From: Elusimicrobiota bacterium
GTDB lineage: Bacteria; Elusimicrobiota; Elusimicrobia; Elusimicrobiales; UBA9959
Direction: 5' to 3'
NCBI GenBank assembly: GCA_030651035.1
Contig: JAUSCK010000290.1
Location: 1 to 34,999, forward strand
DNA: 34,999 nt
In this document: positions 26,246 to 34,678 of the stretch, in pieces
How positions within the stretch are numbered: position 1 is the stretch's first letter
How the letters are laid out: each line of letters opens with the position of its first letter
The notes under the pieces: model-generated
The model's input: the letters and a program-made list of their open reading frames with translations, nothing else
The model's database searches: none
What the model was told of the DNA's origin: nothing
Position numbers and translations under genes: made by a program

Positions 26246-26330
26246 ATTTTTATCTCCATTTTAACCCACCTAAAGTCCGCCGCTGTTTTGACCCGAAATC
26301 TTCAGTTGAAAGATCTATAACTACCCAGAT

Positions 26331-26393
26331 TGTCATTGCGAGCGGAGCGAAGCAATCTGATGAGATTGCTTCGGGCTTCGTCTCGCAATGACA
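26331..26393. repeat. Palindromic repeat, family D, solo copy
   Basis: TGTCATTGCGAGCGGAGCGA (26331-26350) plus AGCAATCT, then a 4-nt turn, then the inverted AGATTGCTTCGGGCTTCGTC plus TCGCAATGACA to 26393. The same arms flank the GIY-YIG gene at 28448-28738. No coding content. Confidence 0.85.
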
Positions 26394-26478
26394 GAGAAAA
26401 CTGAGCAGTTACAAAGATTTTTAGATTGATAATTTTACCCTGTCACCATGAATCCGGTTCAAATAGAACCGTCTCCTT

Positions 26479-27636
26479 TTAACTTTTAACAGATTTCGGG
26501 GATCTGCTTACAACTTGTGCAACGACACCCGAGAATTCTTTCCTGGTATAATCGAGGAGGATCTCTATATCAGGATCTAATTTTATGCTCCTGTAGTGTA
26601 TACCCCAGCCATTTTCTCCATCGTATCCAAAATGGATGTATATATTGTTGAATACCCACTGATACGAAAACGACTTACTACCTCTCATAAGATAGCTCGG
26701 ATTGCCGTAAGAGCGTTTTAGCGCACTTAAAATCTCTTCAGACCCAGACCATATCTCAGACCGTGTTAGTTTTCTTCCATCCAGATTGGTAAAATGAAAC
26801 GAAGCATCAGTTTCATATAGGCCTTGTTTGCTGAACTTAAAGCCAAGTAAAGCTCCATGTTTATATAGAGTTCCGAATAGAGCCTGACTAAAACAGGTAA
26901 GATGGGGTGGGCCTTTGAATTCGGTGATTTTCTCTTCTGGAATGTCCATTAAAATAGAGTCGCCGTATGCTGCTGATACCTGTTGCTGTCTCATCCCCCA
27001 CGAAATTCCCTTAAATTGGGGCTCATGGAACTTTGTTGGTTTTTTGTATTCAATCCCTTTCTGGAGGTTTCCTGATTCCGAAAGATGTGAACATCCATAT
27101 GCTTTAACGATTTTCATTATGATTGGTTTGCCTTTCTTTTCAGCAACCTCGTCGTAGACTGATAGACGCGCCATATACTTAATATTCAGCAGCGTCTGCA
27201 CATTGTTGAGGATGAAAAACCAGATAAGCCAGCAACCTATACCAGCAATTGCAAGTAACCAGGAATAGATGAAAGACATAATAACAAGAACAAGGCCACC
27301 CCACCATAGGCCCTGGTTAAGCCAGATGACAGAGTTGAATATCCATTTTGTCTCGAGAGCGCCACTGATGAATTCCGTTCTGAACTGGGCGGATGGGTCA
27401 GAGAGTATATGTAGCATGTGCGCGTAGTCAGGCTGGTTAACCGTCCCCAGGAAGAATTTTGGTGTCCAGGGGGAGTCTTGAAGAACTTGCCTTTCAATGA
27501 TCCTTTGCTTCTTTTCGATTTTTTCCCAGGGGACATTAGTGTCGAGACATTCCTTCAATAGGCGCGGTATTTGCGCCGCAAACTCCCCCTGACTTTGAGA
27601 AAGTCTACTGCGGATCTCTTTCGCGGATTCACACAT
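26479..27636 (-). CDS. Membrane protein of unknown function on the AT-richer insert
   Basis: 385 aa. The N-terminal ~100 residues are charged and cytosolic-looking. Two hydrophobic helices lie at about 110-150 (WGGLVLVIMSFIYSWLLAIA, then CWLIWFFILNNVQ), followed by a ~200-residue soluble part with GISWGMRQQQVSAAYG, a motif style seen in small secreted or lipoprotein domains, and FHFTNLDGRKL. No family recognised. The base composition is clearly lower in GC than the catabolic genes on both sides. The ATG at 27636 lies 10 nt beyond an attC-like site whose GTTAGGGG core also supplies a ribosome binding site, as in integron cassettes. Confidence 0.7.
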   Translation of the reverse strand: MCESAKEIRSRLSQSQGEFAAQIPRLLKECLDTNVPWEKIEKKQRIIERQVLQDSPWTPKFFLGTVNQPDYAHMLHILSDPSAQFRTEFISGALETKWIFNSVIWLNQGLWWGGLVLVIMSFIYSWLLAIAGIGCWLIWFFILNNVQTLLNIKYMARLSVYDEVAEKKGKPIIMKIVKAYGCSHLSESGNLQKGIEYKKPTKFHEPQFKGISWGMRQQQVSAAYGDSILMDIPEEKITEFKGPPHLTCFSQALFGTLYKHGALLGFKFSKQGLYETDASFHFTNLDGRKLTRSEIWSGSEEILSALKRSYGNPSYLMRGSKSFSYQWVFNNIYIHFGYDGENGWGIHYRSIKLDPDIEILLDYTRKEFSGVVAQVVSRSPKSVKS

Positions 27637-27646
27637 ATGGAATGGC

Positions 27647-27711
27647 CCCTAACGCTGGAACTCAGCCTGCCCCGTGGCCGTTAACGGGTCGGCTGGAGCG
27701 ACTGGTTTGGA
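27647..27711 (-). other. Integron attC-like recombination site
   Basis: On the - strand: an R''-like CCAAACC at one end and CAGC|GTTAGGG at the other, with inner boxes CAGTCGCTCCAGCCGACC and GGCAGGCTGAGTTCCAGC between. AGCCGA sits 10 nt after the AAC of R'', the same spacing as in aadA-type attC sites, and the centre can pair CCCGT/ACGGG. The R'' box is degenerate. The next gene starts 10 nt beyond the R' end, the usual cassette geometry. No integrase or second attC site is in the window. Confidence 0.55.
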
Positions 27712-27816
27712 TTTCAATCTTTGCTTTGTGCATAAAAGGCTAAATAATGTGTTCTATTGGGTTTTGCTGGGGTTACCACAGCGCCCACCAGGGCAAAATC
27801 CTCAATTTTGCGCAAT

Positions 27817-28302
27817 TCAACCATAACAACTCCCCTGTTTTAACGATAATTTATAATCCTGCAATTTTTCTTTTACCTCATTCAAACATTTACGTCCAAA
27901 ACCCTTTATCTGCATCAAATCGCCTTCAGATTTATTCCTCAAATCTTCTATGGTACAAATACCCGCAATGCTCAGACAACTATTTAATCTGACCGAAAAA
28001 TCCAAATTTTCCACAGAGAAATTGTTCATAGAGGAGTTTTTAATGCCAATTATGTGTTCCGGTCTCGTAAATAATTGTTTTATCTGAAGACTTTTTAACT
28101 TATATCGTTGCTGCACCGCGCCCACTGACAATCCAACTTCAGTGCCGATTTCTTTAAACGACAGCGGCTTTTCACGCCCTATCCCGAATCTTAGCGCAAG
28201 GATTTGGATATCAATGGGTTTTGACAGGTTAGCCAGCTTACATATTTTTTTTCGCATTTCCTTGAAGAATAATTCGTCTATCGCAAATAATTCCTTTTTC
28301 AT
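27817..28302 (-). CDS. Small fusion of a sigma-region-4-like HTH and an RNA polymerase alpha-CTD-like domain
   Basis: 161 aa. Residues ~30-75 (RFGIGREKPLSFKEIGTEVG, then LSVGAVQQRYKLKSLQ) read like sigma70 region 4, the -35-binding helix-turn-helix. Residues ~95-150 (LDFSVRLNSCLSIAGICTIE, then DLMQIKGFGRKCLNEVKEKL) read like the helix-hairpin-helix of the RNA polymerase alpha C-terminal domain. No sigma region 2 or alpha N-terminal domain is present, so it cannot replace either protein; a DNA-binding regulator or anti-/co-sigma-like factor is inference. AT-rich; lies on the insert beside the attC-like site. Weak ribosome binding site. Confidence 0.75.
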   Translation of the reverse strand: MKKELFAIDELFFKEMRKKICKLANLSKPIDIQILALRFGIGREKPLSFKEIGTEVGLSVGAVQQRYKLKSLQIKQLFTRPEHIIGIKNSSMNNFSVENLDFSVRLNSCLSIAGICTIEDLRNKSEGDLMQIKGFGRKCLNEVKEKLQDYKLSLKQGSCYG

Positions 28303-28383
28303 TTTTTATTTCCGTTGGTTTTGCAGTAAAGTAATTTCACAGCAAGACCGCCACGCTGCGCTCGCGGTGACACAGGGAAGCAT

Positions 28384-28448
28384 CATTACGAGCCCGTTTT
28401 TGGGCGGAGCAATCCGACGAAGCCGTTGCGAGCTTAGTGAAGCAATCT
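28384..28448. repeat. Family D repeat, arm downstream of the GIY-YIG gene
   Basis: CATTACGAGC (28384) and, closer to the gene, GTTGCGAGCTTAGTGAAGCAATCT (28425-28448). The innermost T is part of the GIY-YIG stop codon (28448-28450). Inverted relative to the arm at 28746-28779. Confidence 0.8.
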
Positions 28449-28738
28449 TACAATTCATCTGACAAATCCCTCCAATCGGGGTTCATGCTGTTTATCAAAT
28501 CTGCCTTTTTTTGCCTTGAGCCGCCTTTTATTTGTTTTTCTCGTCCTATTGCACTATTAACATCCGGTGTCGTCTCATAATAAACAAGTTTGGTGATGTT
28601 ATATTTTGATGTAAATCCCTGTACGAGTTTTTGCTTGTGCTCATAAACCCTTCGTACGAGATTATTCGTAACACCTGTGTAAAGAACTGTGTCGCTCCAA
28701 TTTGTCATAATGTAAATGTAATATTGTCTGGAATACAT
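28448..28738 (-). CDS. Single-domain GIY-YIG nuclease (UPF0213/YhbQ-like) inside a repeat pair
   Basis: 96 aa. The GIY-YIG motif is present as YYIYIMTN...VLYTGVTNNLVRRVYEHK, with the conserved Arg in NNLVRR and Glu in GREKQIKG. Such stand-alone domains are DNA nucleases of mostly unknown role. The gene has no ribosome binding site and is framed tightly by inverted family D arms: 7 nt upstream of the ATG and overlapping the stop codon. That placement suggests that gene and repeat move or persist together. Confidence 0.85.
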   Translation of the reverse strand: MYSRQYYIYIMTNWSDTVLYTGVTNNLVRRVYEHKQKLVQGFTSKYNITKLVYYETTPDVNSAIGREKQIKGGSRQKKADLINSMNPDWRDLSDEL

Positions 28739-28745
28739 GTTTTAT

Positions 28746-28779
28746 AGATTGCTTCGTCACTACGTTCCTCGCAACGACA
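28746..28779. repeat. Family D repeat, arm upstream of the GIY-YIG gene
   Basis: AGATTGCTTCGTCACTACGT then TCCTCGCAACGACA (28746-28779), the inverted counterpart of the arm at 28425-28448. Confidence 0.8.
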
Positions 28780-28802
28780 TACCACAAACGCCATATCATT
28801 CG

Positions 28803-30206
28803 TCAAAACCCCCACTCGCGGACGTCGAATTTCTTCCGCTTCAGATACCGGCCATGGCCTTTTTTACCCGTGAATTTTCCGTATTCGGCGACCACCTGCC
28901 CGCGCGAGATCACGAAGGCGGGAAGCCCGTCGAGCTTGAAGCCCTCGAACGCTGAATAATCCACGTTGTGGCGCGAGTTTTTAACCGAGACCTCTCCGGC
29001 GCGGGCCGGGTTGAATATGACCAGGTCGGCGTCCGAGCCAACAGCCACCGTTCCTTTCCCGGGATACATGCCGAATATTTTTGCCGCGTTCGTGGCTATG
29101 GCGGCCGCGAACTGGTTGCGGCTCAGCCTCCCGCTGCGCACCCCGTAGGTGTAAAGGAGGTTCACCCGGTCGCCCACGCCGGGAATGCCGTTGGGTATCC
29201 TCAGGAAGTCGCCCTTCCCCATTTCCTTCTGGCCCTTGAAATTGAAGGAGCAGTGGTCCGTGGCCACGCTTTGGAGGAAGCCGTCGCGCAGGCCGTTCCA
29301 GAGCTTGTCCTGGTTCAAGACATGGCGCAGCGGCGGGGACATTACCCACTTGGCGGCCTCGAAGCCGTTCTTCTTGTACAGCTCGTCGGAGAGCAGCAGG
29401 TATTGCGGGCAGGTTTCCGCGAGCACCAGCTGGCCGCGCACCCTGGCGGCCTGGACTTCGCGCAGCGCTTCGTCGCAGCTCAGGTGGACTATGTGCAGCG
29501 GGGCCCCGGCGAACCCGGCCAGGACGATGGCGCGGTGCGCGGCTTCGCCCTCGGCCTCGGCGGGATGCGCGAGCGCATGGTACTCCGGTCCGGTCTTGCC
29601 CTCGCCGGCGAACCGCTTCATCAAATGGGTGAGCATATCGCCGTTCTCGGCGTGGACGGAAACAAGGGCCGAATTCTCCTTGGCCGCGCCCAGGACCTGC
29701 AGGAGCTGGTCGTCGTCTATCATCAGCGCGCCTTTATAGGCCATGAAGCACTTGAAGCTGGAGATACCCTCCGCAACTACTCCCGGGATGTCCGCGAGCA
29801 CTTCCGCGTTGACCTCGGGGAGCGCCATATGGAAGCCGTAATCCACCGCGGCCTTCCCCATGGCCTTCTCATGCCAGGCCGCTACGGCCGCGGCGAGCTT
29901 CTGCCCCTTGCCCGGGATGACGAAATCCACGATGGCGGTGGTGCCACCGCACGCGGCCGCGACCGTGCCGGTCTCGAAATCGTCGGGGGATACTGCCCCC
30001 ATGAAAGGGAGGGCGAAATGCGTGTGCGCGTCTATCCCGCCCGGGTAGATCTCCAGGCCGGCCGCGTCTATCACAGTGTCGCCGGCGGAAGGCTCGATGC
30101 CCGGGCCGAGCCGGCAGATCTTCCCGTCCTCCGCCAGGATATCGGCGGAGAAAGTATCGGAAGCCGTGAAGATGGTCCCGTTCTTTATCAACATTCTTTT
30201 TGTCAT
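28803..30206 (-). CDS. hydA: Dihydropyrimidinase (D-hydantoinase family)
   Basis: 467 aa. Opens dihydrouracil or dihydrothymine to N-carbamoyl-beta-alanine or N-carbamoyl-3-aminoisobutyrate. The amidohydrolase metal set is complete: H61xH63 in GGIDAHTHF, the carboxylated Lys152 in SSFKCFMAYKG, His in SVHAENGD, His in HIVHLSCDEA and Asp in VATDHCSF. AAAGGA before the ATG at 30206 supports the start. It is split from the downstream aminotransferase by the AT-richer insert and from the upstream beta-ureidopropionase by a family E palindrome. Confidence 0.94.
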   Translation of the reverse strand: MTKRMLIKNGTIFTASDTFSADILAEDGKICRLGPGIEPSAGDTVIDAAGLEIYPGGIDAHTHFALPFMGAVSPDDFETGTVAAACGGTTAIVDFVIPGKGQKLAAAVAAWHEKAMGKAAVDYGFHMALPEVNAEVLADIPGVVAEGISSFKCFMAYKGALMIDDDQLLQVLGAAKENSALVSVHAENGDMLTHLMKRFAGEGKTGPEYHALAHPAEAEGEAAHRAIVLAGFAGAPLHIVHLSCDEALREVQAARVRGQLVLAETCPQYLLLSDELYKKNGFEAAKWVMSPPLRHVLNQDKLWNGLRDGFLQSVATDHCSFNFKGQKEMGKGDFLRIPNGIPGVGDRVNLLYTYGVRSGRLSRNQFAAAIATNAAKIFGMYPGKGTVAVGSDADLVIFNPARAGEVSVKNSRHNVDYSAFEGFKLDGLPAFVISRGQVVAEYGKFTGKKGHGRYLKRKKFDVREWGF

Positions 30207-31728: not shown

Positions 31729-33309
31729 TTAAGCCGGCGTCTCTTCTCCGCGCACTGTCTTCATCTCCAGGATGCGGTCCACCCTGAACATGCGCTTCTC
31801 GCCCCGCTTGAGGCAATGCGCCTCCAGGCCCTTGAAGGTAACGGTGTTGTATTTGCAGTCGCCCACCGACAGCGGCCTCACGGTGCGGCGGCTTTTTTCG
31901 TCGCGCGCTTTAAGGTAGGTCATCTCAAGGCAGTTGCCGTCCTTAATGGCCTGCTCTATCATTCTAATTTTTTCTTCGAGCGGCATAAGCTGCTCGCTGG
32001 TCCCGTACTGGTGGCCGGTTACATAGCGCACAATGCGCCAGTCCGTCATCACGTCCGCTGGCCGCACGGCCCGCGCCAGCGATAAGCCCTCCAGCGCCGT
32101 GCAGCGGCTGAGCGCCACATAGGTCTGCCCGGCGGCGAAAGCCCGGCGGCCCAGGTCTATTATCGCCCGCTCGAAGGTCTTGCCCTGGCTTTTGTGGATG
32201 GTAATGCCCCAGGCCAGCTTCAGCGGGTACTGGGTGAAGGTACCGGCAGTTTCCGTCTTTATTTTTTTAGCCTCTTCGTCGAAGGTGAAATGGAAAAGCT
32301 CCCAGGCGTGCGGCTCCACCGGCTCAACGGAGCCGTCCGCTAAACGCACGTGTATCACGTCCGGCTCGCCCGCCGGGCCTCTCATAATATCCTGCACCGC
32401 GGCCATGCTGCCGTTCACCCAGCGCCCGTCGGGGTCGTTGTTCAGCATCATCACCTGCGCCCCGGCCTTCAGGTGCAGCTCGTCGTCGGCAGGGTAGGAA
32501 TCGCGGGTAAACTCGCCGGAGGTTTCCGCCCTGTAGACATGGGAGCGCCCGTCTATGCCGCGCAGGCGCTCGTTGTTTATTTCGGCCGCGTCGGCGTTGG
32601 TGGTGAGCAGGCGCACTATAAGGCCGCGGCCGTCCGTCTCCACGTCCGCGCCCACGCGGCTGTTAAGCCGCGCCAGCTGGGCGGGGCTCACGCGGTTGTT
32701 CCTTATCGCGTTCAGGATCTCTATAAAGCCCTGGTCCTTCTGGCGGTAGATCTTCTCCAGCTCCAGGTACTCGATACCGGCCTCGCCGAAAATTTTGGAG
32801 TTGAAGAAGTAGGGCCCCTTGTAATAAGTAGAAAACAGCTCGCGCTCGGCCCCGGTGACCACCGGCGGCAGCTGGTAAAGGTCGCCGAAAAGTATAAGCT
32901 GCGTCCCGCCGAAAGGCTTCCCCGGCTCCCGCCCGTTCATGCGCATGAAGGCGTCCACGCAATCCATCAGGTCGGCCCTCACCATGGAGGCCTCGTCTAT
33001 AACTATGGCGGCCAGCTCCCTGTAAATTTCGGCGTCTTTCTTGCGCGCCCTTCTTACCTTGTCGGGCGTGGTCCCAGGCCTGAAGCGGAAGAAAGAATGT
33101 ATGGTTTCCCCGGCCACGTTCAGGGCGGCCACGCCGGTGGGGGCCAGCACCACTATTTTTTTCGAGGTATGGGCGCGGAAATAGCGCAGCAGTGTGCTTT
33201 TGCCGGTGCCTGCCTTGCCGGTCACGAATACGTTATGGCTGCCGTGCTGCAGCAGATGCAGGGCCTTTGTGAACTGCTCGTTAAATTCTATTTCTGTCTC
33301 TTCAGTCAT
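31729..33309 (-). CDS. Pif1-like superfamily 1B helicase with C-terminal WYL-like domain
   Basis: 526 aa. Walker A GKAGTGKST (31-39), APTGVAALNVAGETIHSFF, Walker B VIDEASM, LFGDLYQLPPV and the late KLAWGITIHKSQGKTFERAI and TYVALSRCTALEGL place it with Pif1/RecD2-type 5'-3' DNA helicases. Residues ~440-520 (IEQAIKDGNCLEMTYLKARD, then VRPLSVGD, LEAHCLKRGEKRMFRVDRI) match the WYL domain, which binds ligands or nucleic acid in regulators. GAGG before the ATG at 33309 supports this start over one 7 codons earlier. It probably acts on G-quadruplex or replication intermediates; the WYL part may regulate it. Confidence 0.88.
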   Translation of the reverse strand: MTEETEIEFNEQFTKALHLLQHGSHNVFVTGKAGTGKSTLLRYFRAHTSKKIVVLAPTGVAALNVAGETIHSFFRFRPGTTPDKVRRARKKDAEIYRELAAIVIDEASMVRADLMDCVDAFMRMNGREPGKPFGGTQLILFGDLYQLPPVVTGAERELFSTYYKGPYFFNSKIFGEAGIEYLELEKIYRQKDQGFIEILNAIRNNRVSPAQLARLNSRVGADVETDGRGLIVRLLTTNADAAEINNERLRGIDGRSHVYRAETSGEFTRDSYPADDELHLKAGAQVMMLNNDPDGRWVNGSMAAVQDIMRGPAGEPDVIHVRLADGSVEPVEPHAWELFHFTFDEEAKKIKTETAGTFTQYPLKLAWGITIHKSQGKTFERAIIDLGRRAFAAGQTYVALSRCTALEGLSLARAVRPADVMTDWRIVRYVTGHQYGTSEQLMPLEEKIRMIEQAIKDGNCLEMTYLKARDEKSRRTVRPLSVGDCKYNTVTFKGLEAHCLKRGEKRMFRVDRILEMKTVRGEETPA

Positions 33310-33412
33310 ATTGCGCCTCAATTTTACCATTTACAGAAAGCCCGCTTGCCCTTAAGTCCTATTTTTCACTAGGCCTTTTTTCCGCAAATTTCAGGGACCT
33401 TAGCCCCTCAAT

Positions 33413-34503: not shown

Positions 34504-34678
34504 TAGGTCTTAAGACCTAGATGCGTCTAGGCCTTTTGACCCTTGAGCGAAGTCAATGCTGGCTGTAAAGTATACTCAGCTACTGTGTAATCCCTGGAAT
34601 TGGCCAGGGAGCATCCACCTCCGGACCTTAATCCGGATTCACCACGGTAAGCGGCAGACGCTGTTTCGGGAGGTGGAT
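34504..34678 (+). promoter_or_regulatory. Structured leader upstream of the MBL-fold gene
   Basis: A perfect 16-bp palindrome TAGGTCTTAAGACCTA (34504-34519) is followed by a CCCTGG/CCAGGG hairpin, then by a closing stem ATCCACCTCC / GGAGGTGGAT (34612-34621 / 34669-34678) that encloses a CCGGA/TCCGG hairpin and an AGCG/CGCT hairpin. The right strand of the closing stem is the ribosome binding site (GGAGGT) just before the ATG at 34679. This is an architecture able to switch translation. I cannot match it to a known riboswitch class. The rest of 34356-34678 holds only the terminator above. Confidence 0.45.

Follow-up and report, generated by a model that had tools for sequence, protein, structure and literature searches.

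A sigma region 4–alpha-CTD fusion protein in an Elusimicrobiota insertion and its counterparts in viral contigs

Two parts of RNA polymerase recognise the upstream face of a promoter and are contacted by activators: region 4 of the sigma factor (sigma-4) and the C-terminal domain of the alpha subunit (alpha-CTD). On promoter DNA they are neighbours, occupying the -35 and the proximal UP position; sigma-4 itself bears a surface that docks on the beta flap. According to the title of PDB entry 3n97, the two domains have been crystallised together on UP/-35 DNA. Among phage proteins, group 2 jumbo phages have minimal sigma factors consisting of a single helix-turn-helix (HTH; PMC7824862), and Ltr of phage Phi13 is a regulator of the late promoter upstream of the terminase genes (PMC13123087); elsewhere, BrxL contains a SIGMA-HTH-like domain and PglW an alpha-CTD-like one (PMC12839542). 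The first-pass annotation of the DNA studied here knew of no characterised protein in which sigma-4 and alpha-CTD are joined, and our literature searches, which covered open-access papers, likewise found no description of one.

The protein described here has 161 residues and is encoded in a window of 34,999 nucleotides, by which we mean the whole stretch of Elusimicrobiota DNA that was analysed; the coordinates of its features are given in Table 1. Sigma-4 is followed by alpha-CTD in one short protein: in Pfam, Sigma70_r4 matches residues 33-68 with 26.2 bits, above its gathering score of 24.1, and RNA_pol_A_CTD matches residues 91-149 with 66.2 bits (E 2e-18). The first-pass annotation had proposed just this pair of domains, and AlphaFold2 and Foldseek agree with both profiles. 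It had also held that the protein lacks the core-binding parts of either parent, which is correct for sigma region 2 (core binding and -10 melting; absent by Pfam and AlphaFold2) and for the alpha N-terminal dimerisation and assembly domain (absent by Pfam), and incorrect for sigma region 4, whose beta-flap surface is established knowledge. By membership the fusion belongs neither with the sigma factors nor with the alpha subunits, and since it has neither sigma region 2 nor the alpha N-terminal domain it cannot form a holoenzyme alone. Single-sequence search gives only weak matches for the sigma half (best phmmer match in the PDB at E 0.32), which also scores just 8.5 bits against a sigma-4 profile built mostly from phage copies, so that the identity of this half rests on Pfam together with structure.

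Table 1. Positions in the window of the fusion gene, its domains and the insertion that carries it.
Feature	Position	Strand	Evidence
AT-rich insertion, ~2.55 kb, between hydantoinase and aminotransferase genes	26258..28811	.	empty site in sister genome G006, GC step
385-aa orphan ORF, hydrophobic stretches by eye, 43% GC, begins just past attC-like site	26479..27636	minus	ORF
Integron attC-like site, R'-like TCCAAAC ... R''-like GTTAGGG, between 36-aa and 385-aa ORFs	27647..27711	minus	alignment to aadA-type attC
36-aa ORF, overlaps fusion stop codon, AGGGGAG ahead of start	27714..27824	minus	ORF
Sigma region 4/alpha-CTD fusion gene, 161 aa	27817..28302	minus	ATG start, ORF call, Pfam, AlphaFold2, Foldseek
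alpha-CTD, ~residues 93-157	27832..28026	minus	Pfam, Foldseek, residue alignment
Linker, low confidence, ~residues 80-92	28027..28065	minus	pLDDT ~50 in residues 81-90
Sigma region 4 domain, ~residues 12-79	28066..28269	minus	Pfam Sigma70_r4, AlphaFold2, Foldseek to sigmaA domain 4, alignment
GIY-YIG nuclease ORF, 37% GC	28448..28738	minus	PF01541, 55.4 bits

The full fusion was modelled with AlphaFold2 from an alignment of the viral fusions described below. The pLDDT is 92-98 in the sigma half (residues 31-70) and 88-97 in the alpha half (residues 91-150), and ~50 in the linker block (residues 81-90); the predicted sigma-4 helices span residues 29-39, 49-56 and 60-79, and the alpha-CTD is confident at ~93-157. 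The low-confidence linker, along with a pTM of 0.48 for the full-length model, indicates that the two domains are not locked in one arrangement. When searched against the PDB with Foldseek, the C-terminal half matches the alpha-CTD 1z3e_B (TM 0.95 by target length, rmsd 0.9 Å). For the N-terminal half modelled alone, the top 50 PDB matches are all sigma factors, either in initiation complexes or as isolated region 4, with an rmsd of 1.8 Å to domain 4 of S. aureus sigmaA (4g8x_A) and a best E value of only 0.003; the folding alignments include other sigma-4 sequences, which could push the model towards a sigma-4 fold. The profile and structure checks that the first-pass annotation had proposed thus returned two confident domains, sigma-4 and alpha-CTD. 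A single unrelated fold is ruled out, as the halves match sigmaA domain 4 and alpha-CTD separately, and so is a generic helix-hairpin-helix C-terminus, given 66 bits for alpha-CTD versus 24 bits for HHH_5, which is under its own cut-off, in addition to the Foldseek match.

The gene lies in a foreign insertion. Only 8 bases separate the hydantoinase gene from the aminotransferase gene in sister genome G006, so that the DNA between them in the window is an insertion in a row of catabolic genes. The GC content is 36.6% for the fusion gene, 36.8% for the GIY-YIG ORF and 43% for the 385-aa ORF, compared to ~60-64% in the surroundings, where the aminotransferase, ferredoxin oxidoreductase and hydantoinase genes flank the insertion at ~62-64%. 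There is no recognisable phage gene in the insertion, whose content is the GIY-YIG ORF and orphan ORFs: the 385-aa ORF has no match in Pfam, PADLOC, PHROG or NCBIfam, and no homologue of the 36-aa ORF was found, while the AGGGGAG before it is a good ribosome-binding-like sequence. Membership in a defence system was considered and rejected, as the PADLOC matches to PglW, MzaA and Csa3 reach only E 0.004-0.02. A short repeat of the TTGCGAGCGGAGCGAAGCAATCT type is present within the insertion in two copies that are 87% alike (26336-26358 and 28426-28448), and the left copy also makes an inverted pair within 26331-26393. Elsewhere in the window there are a 2dG-II purine riboswitch aptamer (34580-34650, plus strand, 78 bits) and a PIF1-like helicase with a C-terminal WYL domain (31729-33330, minus strand), a pairing that is, to our knowledge, unusual.

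The attC-like site gives the best alignment to aadA-type attC in the 35-kb window (score 39, compared to 32 for the next independent place), and its score was reached by 0 of 5000 shuffles; its folding z-score is only -1.66. The window holds no second site of comparable score, and no integron integrase above the family cut-off was found in the genome. The best integrase candidate, a XerD-like recombinase below this cut-off and located beside an IS91-type transposase-like ORF (by eye), was rejected. Neither the attC-like site nor the 36-aa ORF was detected on plasmids by direct search. Because the fold z-score is weak and no integrase passes the cut-off, we regard a gene-cassette origin of the insertion genes as no more than suggestive; the site is possibly a lone remnant of a cassette.

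Searches that started from the window protein gave no relative that covers both of its halves, whether in 61 relatives, in 295 genomes of the host phylum, in 344 genomes from the phylum to which a Solobacterium locus belongs, in the wider genome-contig search, in viral contigs (with the window protein alone as query), or by tblastn of phages and plasmids. The matches inspected outside its own locus are RpoA, other alpha-CTD proteins or sigma factors: weak two-domain matches in genomes of the same order proved to be RpoD-type sigma factors, and 'plasmid' matches from Azospirillum and Fusobacterium proved to be RpoA or unannotated RpoA-like sequence. When 341 phylum genomes were searched with an alignment of fusions, the window itself was the sole match at a strict cut-off of E <= 1e-29. 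A recent duplication of the host rpoA was also rejected, as the alpha-CTD of the window protein falls outside the RpoA clade of the host phylum (support 97/87) and shares 48% with its own rpoA; a separate rpoA-like ORF is found on contig C113 of genome G000. The architecture is rare in the chromosomes sampled. One bacterial genome (G640) encodes a 191-aa fusion, with 161 bits compared to ~110 for RpoA, that adjoins a tyrosine integrase and a terminase-like ORF (by eye) in a prophage-like locus, and a Bacillota protein (L116) has two alpha-CTDs and then Sigma70_r4.

Small proteins with an alpha-CTD outside RpoA were also observed in these searches. A genome of the host phylum (G065) encodes a stand-alone alpha-CTD protein of ~124 aa (L115, 1333-1704); its N-terminal part is helical, it has no sigma-4, and its partner on the tree is a viral alpha-CTD (98/86). 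In the G305 phylum, two genomes each have a small alpha-CTD ORF in a 128-residue frame, separate from rpoA (L104 and L113); this is apparently a divergent partial copy, and L104 pairs with the rpoA of L103 on the tree (100/99).

Searching for homologues and their neighbourhoods, as the first-pass annotation had advised, did uncover the same architecture in viral contigs, in some cases near phage genes. The search by alpha-CTD alignment returned 80 viral-contig loci, many of them alpha-CTD proteins and a subset of them fusions. Among 40 proteins scanned with Pfam, one of which is the window protein, RNA_pol_A_CTD was found in all 40 and Sigma70_r4 in 14, with individual scores of up to 62 bits. 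Combining Pfam scans with a local profile count gives at least 22 distinct viral contigs with sigma-4 followed by alpha-CTD, a number that includes two near-duplicate pairs and one protein (L146) with a marginal sigma-4. Several of these fusions also have an N-terminal Cro/C1-type HTH. ORFs near the viral fusions match PHROG families for the terminase large subunit, DNA helicase, DNA methyltransferase, ParB-like protein, HNH endonuclease, exonuclease and single-strand binding protein. In one pair (L135 and L149) the fusion has a ParB/methyltransferase gene on one side and the terminase gene on the other, and it is at this type of position that Gram-positive phages often place a late regulator. 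The fusion architecture is therefore not unique to the window: it recurs in viral contigs and in the prophage-like locus of G640, and the larger L116 combines two alpha-CTDs with sigma-4. Among the other viral-contig proteins, one (L200/L201, 1266-2285) carries a GNAT acetyltransferase-like region along with an alpha-CTD.

To compare the DNA-contacting residues we use E. coli numbering for sigma and alpha, in which we take the -35 contacts of sigma to be R584/E585/R588/Q589, and the roles of the residues are likewise those we presume from E. coli. In the alignments, the recognition helix of the window sigma-4 (LSVGAVQQRYK) has V/G/Q in place of R584/E585/R588, and Q589 is kept. The window alpha-CTD retains the equivalents of R265, C269, G296, K298 and E302 and carries N268S, N294G and S299C; N294 and S299 are invariant in the 66 other alpha-CTDs examined. 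In the viral fusions, R265, N294, G296, K298, S299 and E302 of the alpha DNA-binding determinant are kept in 22 of 22 copies, N268 in 18 and C269 in 19, and most retain a sigma recognition helix of the RERxRQ or xERxRQ type. With determinants of both alpha and sigma retained in the viral copies, the phage class looks, as judged from these residues, as though it is built for promoter-type DNA binding. For the window copy, the replacement of contact residues in both halves means that its DNA specificity has probably been shifted or weakened, and it is doubtful that it would bind canonical -35/UP DNA.

The descent of the fusions was addressed with a tree of the alpha-CTD, in which the fusion group was defined by architecture. 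A single clade uniting the window protein with all the fusions was rejected (p-AU 0.012, over 71 columns), and at least 6 changes of state were counted on this tree. The rejection of a single clade suggests that sigma-4 and alpha-CTD have been fused repeatedly, although the small number of columns makes this no more than an indication; a pairing of the window copy with one viral copy is compatible with the same 71-column tree, at ~21-30% identity to the viral copies. The window sigma-4 has a loop of the cellular-sigma type (GIGREKP), which is missing in most aligned viral copies, L190 excepted, and this fits a separate origin.

We thus suggest, and consider about evenly balanced, that the gene was horizontally acquired and that its product is a two-module transcription regulator of the phage or mobile-element type; we infer DNA binding, contact with RNA polymerase and a regulatory role for the fusion. 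The fusion appears to be one member of a class of phage or mobile-element transcription regulators that has not been described so far. The short flexible linker would tether sigma-4 to alpha-CTD, so that one protein could cover the UP/-35 junction. The fusion might then bind the upstream DNA of a group of promoters and contact RNA polymerase, either at the beta flap via the sigma-4 surface or via sigma contacts, and thereby favour or disfavour those particular promoters. For the class as a whole we speculate, more tentatively and with clearly less than even confidence, that sigma-4–alpha-CTD proteins are recurrent factors of phages and mobile elements, formed more than once, that would span the UP/-35 region and steer the host RNA polymerase while being neither sigma nor alpha.

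A plainer regulator is conceivable, in which the sigma-type HTH and the helix-hairpin-helix of the alpha-CTD are generic modules for sequence-specific DNA binding and do not contact RNA polymerase. Its best argument is that both modules serve as accessory DNA-binding domains in BREX proteins outside RNA polymerase (PMC12839542), and the drift of the window copy from the canonical promoter-contact residues is in line with it. However, such a view hardly explains why the viral fusions retain both promoter determinants in the same order and with apparently repeated origins, and we consider it rather unlikely. The same drift, with the -35 contact residues lost and the sigma-4 fold kept, would also suit a decoy or inhibitor of RNA polymerase, in which host transcription is lowered because the beta flap is contested by a sigma-4 mimic, or UP DNA and activators by an alpha-CTD mimic; the absence of sigma region 2 and of the alpha N-terminal domain agrees with this as well. 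Yet a decoy has no need of the DNA contacts that the phage copies conserve, and the gene has been retained in a bacterial chromosome; we consider this explanation improbable.

It is similarly improbable that a small mobile insertion carries the gene as a passenger that is decaying or has no function. The window fusion was found in one genome only, its neighbours are orphan ORFs, and it has changes at positions that are otherwise invariant in alpha-CTDs, all of which a passenger might show; but its 161-codon frame is intact, both domains are predicted to fold well, and the overlapping downstream ORF has a ribosome-binding-like sequence of its own. If, as we prefer to think, the fusion is a two-module regulator, and should it steer RNA polymerase, it would represent a new route by which phages and mobile elements control host transcription. 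A natural protein in which the two domains are tethered would test how much of promoter recognition these two parts carry alone, and many phage ORFs annotated by domain name only become members of a testable class.

When set beside known systems, the fusion resembles the group 2 jumbo phage sigma factors in having a sigma-4-like HTH without the rest of sigma, although no alpha-CTD is described for those (PMC7824862). With Ltr of Phi13 the likeness is a functional analogy only: the viral L135 and L149 fusions likewise adjoin a terminase gene, and no alpha-CTD is mentioned for Ltr (PMC13123087). The 210-aa 'RNA polymerase subunit alpha' of Bacillus phage Goe8 and the stand-alone L115 share with the fusion an alpha-CTD outside RpoA, and differ from it in having no sigma-4 domain by Pfam. 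Bacillota L116 likewise unites both Pfam domains in a single protein, though in an 889-residue frame in which the two alpha-CTDs come first and sigma-4 lies downstream at residue ~291; NCBI records give the name 'sigma factor-like helix-turn-helix DNA-binding protein' to related plasmid proteins, whose matches cover mainly sigma-4 and the C-terminal part. The fusions of viral contigs (L129, L130, L136, L158, L190 and others) share with the window copy the order of sigma-4 then alpha-CTD, and Pfam shows neither sigma region 2 nor an alpha N-terminal domain in them. They differ in their phage gene neighbourhood and in sequence (~21-30% identity to the window copy), and most have longer linkers, many with an extra N-terminal HTH, and do not have the cellular-type sigma-4 loop of the window copy; in L130 (197 aa) and L190 (241 aa), nonetheless, the layout is close to that of the window fusion.
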